From a virus: a DNA stretch of 48,891 bases. The stretch's first letter is position 1; every line of letters starts with the position of its first letter. Shown here one piece after another: positions 3,437-6,830 of this stretch. The notes under the pieces are model-generated. The model was given only the letters and a program-made list of their open reading frames with translations, had not been told where the DNA came from and made no database searches. Where the stretch lies: positions 1-48,891 of the IMG/VR virus record IMGVR_UViG_3300046660_000247. One strand, given 5' to 3'. A program made the translations under genes and the position numbers.

Positions 3437-4171
3437 TTACATCGGCCTCCGTTTCGTTTGTTTCATGTGCGAGCAGACTTCGTCAATCCAGCCGCGACAA
3501 TGCGCCCTGTTATACGCACCTTTTGCACCCAACATGAAGTCATTTCGAGACGTGTATTTCAATGCTTCCGCAACGCACCGGTCTTTCGTCCAATATCCTC
3601 TAGGACGAAAACGGGGTGTCATGTGGTCACAAATTTCACGCAACCAACCGTTTCGTTGCGCTGCCACGTATGCGCCACCTTCCCCATGAAGGAACTCTCT
3701 GGCGGTCTTGTATTTCAGCGCTGCCTTAGCGCAGCGTTGTTTGTTCCAATGACCTTTTACGTTTATTACCCGCTCCATATGTGCACAAACGTCGTCCAGC
3801 CACCCTTTACGATGTGCTGCGGTATAAGCGCTTTTCACACCCAACTCGAAAGCTCGCCGTGTCGAATATTTCGATGCCGCCTCGACACAACGTTCTTTCG
3901 TCCAGCGTGATTCACTGCCGCCAAGCGACCCGGCGACGTTGATATTTACCGTTTCGACGCCGATAACCCGCAAGAAACGAACGGCCTTTGCTTCGAAGCG
4001 TTGGGCGACGTGGTCGGGCATTGGTCCAGTCTTCAGAATAGAGTGACTGCCCACGAAAAGCTGAGGCTTGCGCCGTTTGTGATCAAGCATTCGTCTAACA
4101 AACTGCCCTGTCAAACCGGCGTATGCTTGTCCTGTTTCATTATTCAGAATGATATAGACTAGCCGTGTCAC
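3437..4171 (-). CDS. GIY-YIG nuclease-like protein with three 52-residue repeats (A)
   Basis: 244 residues. Residues 1-88 form a GIY-YIG-like domain: VYI at 5-7, YAG at 17-19, basic [10 protein letters not shown], and a conserved E near 60. Then follow three tandem repeats of about 52 residues (89-140, 142-193, 194-244), each with W-x4-C near the start, KY-x5-F, AY-x2-A, a GW[LI] step and C-x2-HM at the end. The repeats are probably helical DNA-binding modules. The Cys and Cys/His positions could bind metal. GTG start at 4171 overlaps the stop of the previous gene (GTGA) and has GGAG 7 nt ahead. It is the paralogue of 6102-6830. Possibly a homing endonuclease or a DNA-processing enzyme. Confidence 0.8.
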
Positions 4172-5775
4172 GTCGGTCTCCGTAGAGGTTCATTCGAGAA
4201 CGGGATGTCATCGGACCAACAGCACCACATACAGTCCATAGTTGCCGCACCCTGACCCGTGAAATCCACTCTCCAGGTTAACGGATGACACGCTTTTGGC
4301 GGGTGTTTCTTCCACAGTTTGTGACGCTTATCCGCGTTCCAATATGTTGCTTTCAGATACATGGCGATGAACGGAAAGCCGAGCTCGTGCGCGTGTGTAA
4401 TGAAGTCGTCAGCGGCGAAGAACGGCGGGTTTGTGATAAACCCCATACGCGTCCAGGCCGGCAGTTTCGGAAGCTCCAGAAAGTCGACCCCGCCGAACCC
4501 GAACCCCTTATGGTATCGATCGGATGACAGGACGGTGAAGCCGTTTGCCGCGATAACTCGCGCCATATGACCGCGACCGCACGCGAGCTCCGCAACAACA
4601 TCTGGAATGACGTCGCGATACCGATCAATTAGCGCTTGCGTCGGCTCGGGCGGCGTGCCGTAAAAATCGTTTTCCGAGCGCTTGGTTGTTACGCTACTGC
4701 CGGCCATCAGCGACCCGAGATTATTCACCGGTTCATGCTCCAATGGTTTCGGCAAAGGCTTCAATGAACGCTTTCGCTTGATAGGCGTTGATCGCGTTTC
4801 CATAACCGCGCAAGCGTCCCACTCGGGCGGAAGCCCCATGAGCCAACGGGAATGTGCCGGGTTCAACTGCCCGCCACCGCTCATCCCGGCAGAAAAGCCA
4901 ATCTGCATCACGCCAGAAACCGTTAGTCGGGCCGGTTCCTTGATGTCCTGCATCAACTGTTGCGGACCCATTTCGTTCTTGCGGTCGCCCGATCGGCTGC
5001 GAAAGTTGTCCACCGCCGGCGTCGGCCATGTCGCCATGTGTGCCACATCGATCAACGACATTCCGACATTCGCCCCGCGCGCCTTCTGTTGTTCCGGCGT
5101 CTCGGGTGAACCGCGTGTCGCGTCCGCTGCTCCAGTCGTCGGCCAACCCGCTAAGTTCGCCTGTCGCGGAAGCTGATCGAACCGTTCCGTTCCGTCCGAT
5201 CGGGGCTTGATGTCGCTGCCCGAGTCCTTCCAATCGCGCGTCGTGGGTAACACCCACGACGCGAACTGTGCCATCGTCGCCAATGACGGGGATCCCGCCC
5301 CAGGACGGTCCACTATCGCGAAATCCGGTCCCGCTGCGCTGGCCTTCTCCGAAGGCCAGCCTTTTCGCTCCAAAGAATTGTCGGTGTCTTTCGTGCGGCG
5401 CCCCGTAGCCCGCAGAAGGGGAAACGACCGCCCCGCAGGCGTAACCCATTCCTTCCAGGTCAGATTGTACAAGGTCGAGCCAAGCATATCCGTCTTTTGA
5501 CGCAACTTGTTCGCCAACGATTTCTGAAGGTCCGCACTCGTGGATGAGATGCTGCCAAGACGGCCATAAGTGCCGCTCGTCATCAAACCCGCCTCTTTTG
5601 CCTGACGCGCTGAAAGGCTGGCAGGGGCAAGAACCTGTCCATATAGGACGGTCGTCACTCCAGCCGACAAGCCTAAGTCCGTAACTCCAGACTCCAATGC
5701 CTGCAAAGAAATGGCACTGTGTGAAAGATCGAAGTTCGGAAGGCTTAATGTCACGGATATCTCTTTCATCCACAA
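4168..5775 (-). CDS. Overlapping-frame ORF fused to an N6-adenine methyltransferase domain
   Basis: 535 residues if read from TTG 5775 (ATG 5769 is the next start). The first 348 residues lie in another frame inside the Dcm gene (4733-5860), yet they look like real protein: [13 protein letters not shown], repeated WPT steps ([14 protein letters not shown]), and [16 protein letters not shown], a stretch I recall from a conserved phage and bacterial family. The final 186 residues are an adenine-methyltransferase-like domain with SAM motif ELACGRGH and catalytic NPPF. That part could also be translated alone from GTG 4728, which follows the Dcm stop by 4 nt and has GGAG 9 nt ahead. The methyltransferase domain is well supported. 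Expression of the upstream frame is inferred. Confidence 0.7.
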
Positions 5776-5860
5776 TGCCAGGGGCGATATGACCGGCCTC
5801 TATGAGATTTCGCAGCCATTGCGCCGCGAACGGATCAATTTCATTGTAAAACGCCGTCAT
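4733..5860 (-). CDS. C5-cytosine DNA methyltransferase (Dcm-like)
   Basis: 375 residues. Motif I is [12 protein letters not shown], motif IV is [14 protein letters not shown] with catalytic Cys in PCQ, motif VI is VGEQVASK (E in the EQV triad), motif VIII is [10 protein letters not shown], and motif X is [12 protein letters not shown] near the C-terminus. The ATG at 5860 overlaps the stop of the upstream gene, so the longer reading from 6010 is rejected. Residues of the target-recognition region are rich in G, R and D, probably because a second frame is also coding (4168-5775). It likely protects phage DNA from host restriction, together with the adenine methyltransferase encoded next. Confidence 0.9.
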
Positions 5861-6105
5861 CAGCCGAGCACCGTATCCACCAGACCGCGTTTGTAGACAG
5901 CGGCTAGAATGGCGTCGTCCAGATCGGCGGCCTTCATGTTGCGTTTGACGGCGGCGGACTTGCGCGCGGTGAACGCACCGGCTTTCTTGCGGAGCGCCGA
6001 CACGTGGCACGGCTCGACGCCGAAGATACGCGCGACATGTTCGCGACCGACTTCAGGGAACTTGCGGAGATAATCCGTTATGCGCTCGTCATGGAACGAA
6101 GTCAT
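5860..6105 (-). CDS. Small HTH-like protein
   Basis: 81 residues. ERITDYLRKFPEVGREHVAR with the following FGVEPCHVSALRKKAG is compatible with a helix-turn-helix. ATG at 6105 overlaps the stop of the GIY-YIG gene (ATGA), so the start 9 codons upstream is unlikely. Its stop overlaps the Dcm start. Possibly a regulator or accessory factor of the neighbouring methyltransferase. Not assigned to a family. Confidence 0.65.
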   Translation of the reverse strand: MTSFHDERITDYLRKFPEVGREHVARIFGVEPCHVSALRKKAGAFTARKSAAVKRNMKAADLDDAILAAVYKRGLVDTVLG

Positions 6106-6830
6106 CGCGCTTGATACCCCATGTGTTTGCAAATGTCGTTAAGCCACCGATTGCGATACGCGGCGCTGTAACAACCCTTTGCTTTTTTATTAAACTCAGA
6201 CCGTGTCCGAAATTTCAAAGCCTCTTCGGCACAACGTTTTTTGGTCCAAAAGTTGGCAGGCGTCTGCGCAAGGCTCATGTGTGCGCACACCGATCGCAGA
6301 AACCCCTTACGCAGTGCCGCGTAGTACGCGCTTCTTGCGTTTCGAGCGAAGTCACTCCGCGTCGAGTATTTCGCCGCCTCTTCCGCGCACCGTTCCCTTG
6401 TCCAGTATCCGTTAGGATTGCATTGCCGGACCATGTGGCTGCAAATGTCATTTAGCCACCTGTTACGATATGCAGCGTCGTAAGCCCCTGCACCGGCTCG
6501 CTGGAAATCACTACGGTTCGTATATTTCAACGCCTCTTCGGCACAACGTTGCTTCGTCCAGATCAGCCCCACCGGTTGACCGAGTGAACCTGTTTTCGCG
6601 ACATTCACAGTGCAGAAGCCGACGAGTCGCAGATAGGAAATTGCATCCGCTTCTTTCCGTTGCGCTGCCGCAGCCGACATGGGTTCCGTCTTAAATACGG
6701 TGTGACGGCCTGAAAAAAGGTGGGATTTCTTGCGACGGTGACGTGCAATTCTCGCCCCAAATTGCTTCGTCAAACCGACGTATGCTTGTCGGGTTTCGTG
6801 GTTGGCGATGATGTAAACAACGTGTGTCAT
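6102..6830 (-). CDS. GIY-YIG nuclease-like protein with three 52-residue repeats (B)
   Basis: 242 residues, same architecture as the protein at 3437-4171: GIY-YIG-like domain (VYI at 5-7, YVG at 17-19) then three repeats beginning WTKQRC, WTRERC and WTKKRC and ending C-x2-HM. The repeats within this copy are close to one another (RCAEEALKY/RCAEEAAKY/RCAEEALKF), so they may have arisen or been homogenised recently. ATGA coupling joins it to the TetR-like gene upstream and to the HTH-like gene downstream. Confidence 0.8.
   Translation of the reverse strand: MTHVVYIIANHETRQAYVGLTKQFGARIARHRRKKSHLFSGRHTVFKTEPMSAAAAQRKEADAISYLRLVGFCTVNVAKTGSLGQPVGLIWTKQRCAEEALKYTNRSDFQRAGAGAYDAAYRNRWLNDICSHMVRQCNPNGYWTRERCAEEAAKYSTRSDFARNARSAYYAALRKGFLRSVCAHMSLAQTPANFWTKKRCAEEALKFRTRSEFNKKAKGCYSAAYRNRWLNDICKHMGYQAR

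Follow-up and report, generated by a model that had tools for sequence, protein, structure and literature searches.

A second gene nested in the +1 frame of a phage C5 cytosine methyltransferase gene probably encodes its specificity subunit

A dcm locus in viral DNA most probably encodes a two-subunit C5 cytosine methyltransferase, with the specificity subunit nested within the catalytic gene. The locus lies in a sequence of 48,891 nucleotides (IMG/VR virus record IMGVR_UViG_3300046660_000247), which was analysed as a whole and is called the window here. We propose that alpha, in frame 1, provides the SAM-binding and catalytic motifs I-VIII together with motif X, and that beta, in frame 2, is a protein started inside the alpha gene which would bring motif IX and, as its modules for target recognition, the WPTP repeats. 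We infer that these are separate chains that assemble into one sequence-specific methylase, that beta gives this complex its specificity, and that the complex methylates DNA. Over the recognition region alpha would serve as a low-complexity linker, open only to reach motif X, and in the window the beta frame continues, without a stop, into a second methyltransferase domain. Selection acts at the protein level on both frames, the selected frame can be assigned region by region, motif X is present on one chain only, and in relatives internal start codons are coupled to ribosome sites.

Two reading frames at one methyltransferase locus

The alpha gene is located on the minus strand, from an ATG at 5860 to its end at 4733, and encodes a C5 cytosine methyltransferase of 375 aa with motifs I-VIII and X. 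Its product matched PF00145 above cut-off (E 3e-13, residues 74-165), with the match ending after motif VIII, and matched phrog_363 over residues 1-372 (E 2e-81). Catalytic motifs I, IV (PCQ), VI and VIII are conserved in the homologue alignment, as is motif X (GYGNAI, 4790-4807). The beta ORF extends from 5775 to 4168 on the same strand, in the +1 frame relative to Dcm. Over its first two thirds it overlaps the Dcm gene, and this part contains the nested gene for the putative specificity subunit (4741-5769; phrog_1008, E 1.5e-27), which is open and constrained in homologues. The preliminary description had reported two open minus-strand frames and the positions of their motifs, and all were located accordingly. 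This included the sharing of the Dcm motif X bases with frame 2, where GYGNAI (4807-4790) is read just past a 16-residue element (4866-4819).

The last third of the beta ORF is a separate methyltransferase-like domain (4168-4722, minus strand; phrog_799, E 1e-37), in frame with beta and with no stop between them. It carries the motifs ACGRG (4584-4570) and NPPF (4431-4420), and has its own internal ATG at 4707. The same fusion was found in a related contig (L002), and another contig (L003) has the domain without a Dcm gene. As judged from the reading frame, beta and the second methyltransferase domain may form one long protein. The block of dcm, beta and methyltransferase genes is flanked by a related pair of GIY-YIG-type proteins (PF01541), at 3437-4171, where the match is weak, and at 6102-6830; a small ORF (5860-6132) also lies within this block.

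Both frames are kept open as protein

We compared the openness of each frame with nulls in which synonymous codons of alpha were shuffled within each gene, or, in the reverse direction, in which the amino acids of beta were held fixed. None of 200 synonymous shuffles of the window Dcm gene left frame 2 open, and the mean number of stops was 3.1. A first homologue set was drawn from phage records, viral contigs and bacterial genomes by the presence of the alpha N-terminus, and contained 176 complete genes including that of the window. The +1 frame was open in 134 of these 176 genes versus 7.8 expected from the shuffle, a count which overstates independence, as the homologues here and in the tests below are mutually related and are not independent events. 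The frame contained a mean of 0.33 stops per gene, mostly near its natural end, where the shuffle predicts 3.1, and the other four alternative frames of the same genes averaged 4 to 12.5 stops. In the reverse test, alpha was open in all 162 variable regions versus 27 expected, with the third frame at its null. This rules out frame 2 as the sole real gene, since alpha is likewise kept open.

A second, distant set was collected from viral contigs with a DNA pattern for LNPx[WF]VEWLMGFP. This gave 80 loci, in 73 of which the -1 frame encodes a complete Dcm. Frame 2 was open from PCQ to the pattern in 73/73, with 13 expected for the main stretch, and was at the null level of openness upstream of PCQ. 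Given beta, alpha was open in 73/73 versus 3.5 expected. Single-chain C5 methylases with an in-frame motif IX served as controls; the 17 examined had 9.35 stops in the +1 frame versus 9.16 expected, and none was open. The overlap is a property of this class and not of C5 methylases generally, and the forward and reverse tests together establish that both frames are held open as protein.

G+C-rich codon usage lowers the number of stops in alternative frames, and frame 2 could in principle be open without coding for anything, as a by-product of the codon usage of a G+C-rich Dcm gene. We give this practically no weight, as it is excluded by the synonymous-shuffle nulls, the single-chain controls and the reversal of codon positions described below, and the overlap is also present in phages of the low-G+C host Paenibacillus. 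The two genes are an overprinted pair, each frame open and constrained beyond what the other imposes. A conserved dual-coding locus had been suggested in the preliminary description, and this was borne out: frame 2 of relatives is unbroken by stops, and its nonsynonymous sites are not free to vary.

Selection acts on different frames in different regions

With a +1 offset, the wobble position of beta is the first base of alpha codons and the wobble position of alpha is the second base of beta codons, so selection on either frame can be separated. We therefore counted differences by codon position between non-redundant pairs of homologues. Before PCQ, corresponding to codons 1-81 of alpha (5617-5860 in the window, minus strand), 64% of differences fell at the alpha wobble position and the reverse pattern was seen in 0 of 142 pairs, as for coding constraint on alpha only. 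A scan by codon showed that the alpha wobble position is free in codons 30-81 and that this freedom is lost abruptly at codon 82, where beta reads LSARQAK (5616-5596). The block that begins here and extends from PCQ to motif VIII (5360-5616, minus strand), which also contains a 13-residue element of beta (5463-5425), is under dual constraint. Both this block and the surroundings of motifs IX and X displayed the intermediate pattern that dual coding predicts.

In the variable region (4928-5359, minus strand) the pattern was reversed in 132/132 pairs, with 53% of differences at the first base of alpha, which is the beta wobble position, and 20% at the third. The same reversal was seen in 33 of 34 pairs of the distant set. 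Alpha consists here of 17% glycine and 12% arginine, and beta contains WPTP-type modules, with W-P-T elements at 5256, 5145 and 5028 in the window. Some of these modules recur in phages of different hosts, as in RcKeef (Rhodobacter) and Haboob (Pseudomonas). The selected protein in the variable region is beta, and alpha behaves as a passenger linker that is kept open. The preliminary description had regarded the G/R-rich stretch as the target-recognition region of Dcm and as the price of overprinting. Our results agree that it is a price of the overlap; it is probably not a recognition region, as selection there acts on frame 2. A constraint from RNA structure was judged unlikely, since the signal is three-periodic and the wobble position of beta is freed.

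Initiation of beta

An internal ATG in frame 2 was present in 125 of 172 genes, written by a conserved Asp-Val of alpha near codon 37. A GGAG or AGGAG sequence precedes this ATG in 80 of the 125, and was found in 1 of 41 genes without a start there. In alpha, the codons for the start and for the ribosome site can vary freely and are separated by several positions, and their coupling is therefore evidence that the internal start is real. In the distant set, frame 2 has stops and then clear ATGs a short way ahead of PCQ. Candidate starts for beta in the window are an ATG at 5769 and a GTG at 5754, neither with a strong ribosome site.

The constraint on beta begins sharply at codon 82, where there is no start codon, and the sequences CCT TTC (codons 82-83) and GGG TTT (codons 91-92) are conserved. 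Both observations would fit programmed frameshifting, in which ribosomes move from alpha into frame 2, and possibly return, and so make a single protein in place of two starts. However, frame 2 is already kept open over codons 38-81 (154/172 versus 100 expected), and neither the ribosome sites coupled to internal ATGs nor the position of the distant-set ATGs after frame-2 stops is expected of such a protein, which would moreover need a second shift to reach motif X. We therefore consider frameshifting very unlikely, and prefer two chains with separate starts.

Distribution of motif X and a motif IX-like element between the chains

In its own chain, alpha has no recognisable motif IX or recognition domain. 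The C-terminal element of beta, LNP(x4)WLMG(F/L)P, which corresponds to the 16-residue element of the window (4819-4866, minus strand), gave an ungapped 7/13 match with the motif IX (LTPRECARLMGFP) found in single-chain enzymes. When an HMM was made from this single-chain motif, 89 of the 247 beta chains scored above 0, almost always at the element just described, compared with 7 of the 247 alpha chains, all away from the expected place, and 5 shuffled sequences. Conversely, an HMM built from beta gave no significant match to motif IX of single-chain Dcm. This short likeness, with its weak enrichment, is suggestive of motif IX on beta. Natural rearrangements at these loci give a stronger argument.

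Motif X was located on alpha, with a nested beta, in 138 of 151 clear alpha-beta pairs. In the remaining 13, from about eight contigs (including L248, L251, L376, L390, L423 and L441), alpha stops short of motif IX, in several cases immediately behind motif VIII, and beta runs through motif IX to motif X. In L441, the beta that bears motif X matches both phrog_1008 and the C-terminal third of phrog_363, the family of alpha. None of the 151 clear pairs had motif X on both chains, with a few further loci ambiguous or incomplete. The presence of motif X on one chain or the other, and never on both, is what would result from one enzyme cut in two ways, and is not explained by an unrelated overlapping gene. 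Among the loci found, beta was always on or overlapping an alpha gene; stand-alone beta genes and in-frame single-chain fusions of alpha and beta were looked for and not found.

Beta has no Pfam or NCBIfam relative, and this would suit a real overlapping gene for an independent accessory protein, such as an anti-restriction or regulatory protein, in place of a methylase subunit. We consider this improbable, because beta always accompanies alpha, motif X moves between the two chains, a motif IX-like element absent from alpha is found on beta, and alpha is unselected over what would be its own recognition region. These features favour beta as a subunit of the methylase. The preliminary description had proposed no function for frame 2, for which our results indicate the role of specificity subunit in the same enzyme. 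A PDB sequence search with a beta profile gave no match, and AlphaFold2 modelling of beta alone (the minimal beta of L148) gave a pLDDT of 66, with no match in a PDB fold search.

Spread and annotation of the nested arrangement

The nested arrangement recurs in hundreds of methylase genes of phages and prophages, which are entered in databases as a single ordinary gene. The overlap also occurs in Paenibacillus, Mycobacterium, Acinetobacter and Leptospira records. The overlap has led to several misannotations: in ZS04 an antisense ORF was called as a gene (L018, 1638-2075), in SAP012 no gene was called (L023, 1417-2210), and in PMG1 the beta frame was called as the methyltransferase (L013, 1486-2247).

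The dcm genes of three unrelated loci (L024, at about 1359-2990, L141 and L171) contain an HNH-like insert in the beta frame between motifs IX and X, and alpha is open throughout. Two more inserts, endonuclease-like and one in each frame, were found in the alpha/beta gene of L011 (2163-4360), where alpha reaches 731 aa and is still open. On the Paenibacillus polymyxa plasmid pAP1 (L309, 832-2322) a tandem duplication appears to have affected the end of the locus, covering motif IX and the part of alpha that precedes motif X. Two bacterial copies look decayed: in Brenneria alni (L144) a frame change joins the beta frame to the alpha C-terminus, and in L179 another sequence replaces the end of alpha.

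Beyond the window, we lean towards a broader reading, in which the 'Dcm' proteins of phages and prophages would include a large, host-wide class of two-chain enzymes with specificity solely in the nested +1 gene. WPTP modules would be exchanged between phages in that frame, alpha would be a passenger open only to reach motif X, and the window beta, fused to a second methyltransferase, would be a bifunctional subunit. If this is true, many annotated complete cytosine methylases are half-enzymes, and prediction of specificity or cloning from the annotated chain alone fails. The beta family is often unannotated and is without a Pfam or NCBIfam model. The locus is also an unusually clear overlapping-gene system, in which single-coded, dual-coded and beta-dominated stretches adjoin, and natural rearrangements at such loci redistribute motifs between the frames, which is useful for the study of overlapping genes.

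Comparison with known systems

In PHROGs, beta corresponds to phrog_1008 and phrog_31772 and alpha to phrog_363; beta of the window, beta of the distant loci and the internal gene of phage Diva all match phrog_1008. These alpha and beta families are all labelled 'DNA methyltransferase', and their relation as two frames of one locus is unrecorded. The records of Paenibacillus phage Diva (DIVA_50) and Escherichia phage K1ind1 (gp33) annotate both overlapping frames, and call the internal genes hypothetical or simply a second methyltransferase, with no role given. In the open-access literature we found no account of the phage overlap beyond M.EcoHK31I and M.AquI as two-polypeptide enzymes. The preliminary description had called the locus little-described; this needs qualification, as some phage records list the internal gene and a C5 methylase made of two polypeptides in this layout, M.EcoHK31I, is already known (PMC3404938), and otherwise holds.

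The window pair resembles M.EcoHK31I (YGGCCR) in its described layout, with a large chain that has motifs I-VIII and X without motif IX. In M.EcoHK31I the gene for the small chain lies inside that for the large chain, in a different frame. The larger polypeptide of this enzyme carries motifs I-VIII and X and the smaller motif IX (PMC3404938). The same review locates the predicted recognition domain on the large subunit, whereas in the phage loci the selected recognition region is in the small-chain frame. The window beta is also longer than the small chain of M.EcoHK31I and is fused to a second methyltransferase domain. M.AquI (CYCGRG) is split between motifs I-VIII and motifs IX-X (PMC3404938), a division matched by the about eight related contigs in which beta bears motif X. 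The window itself differs from M.AquI, in that motif X stays on alpha and the two genes overlap.
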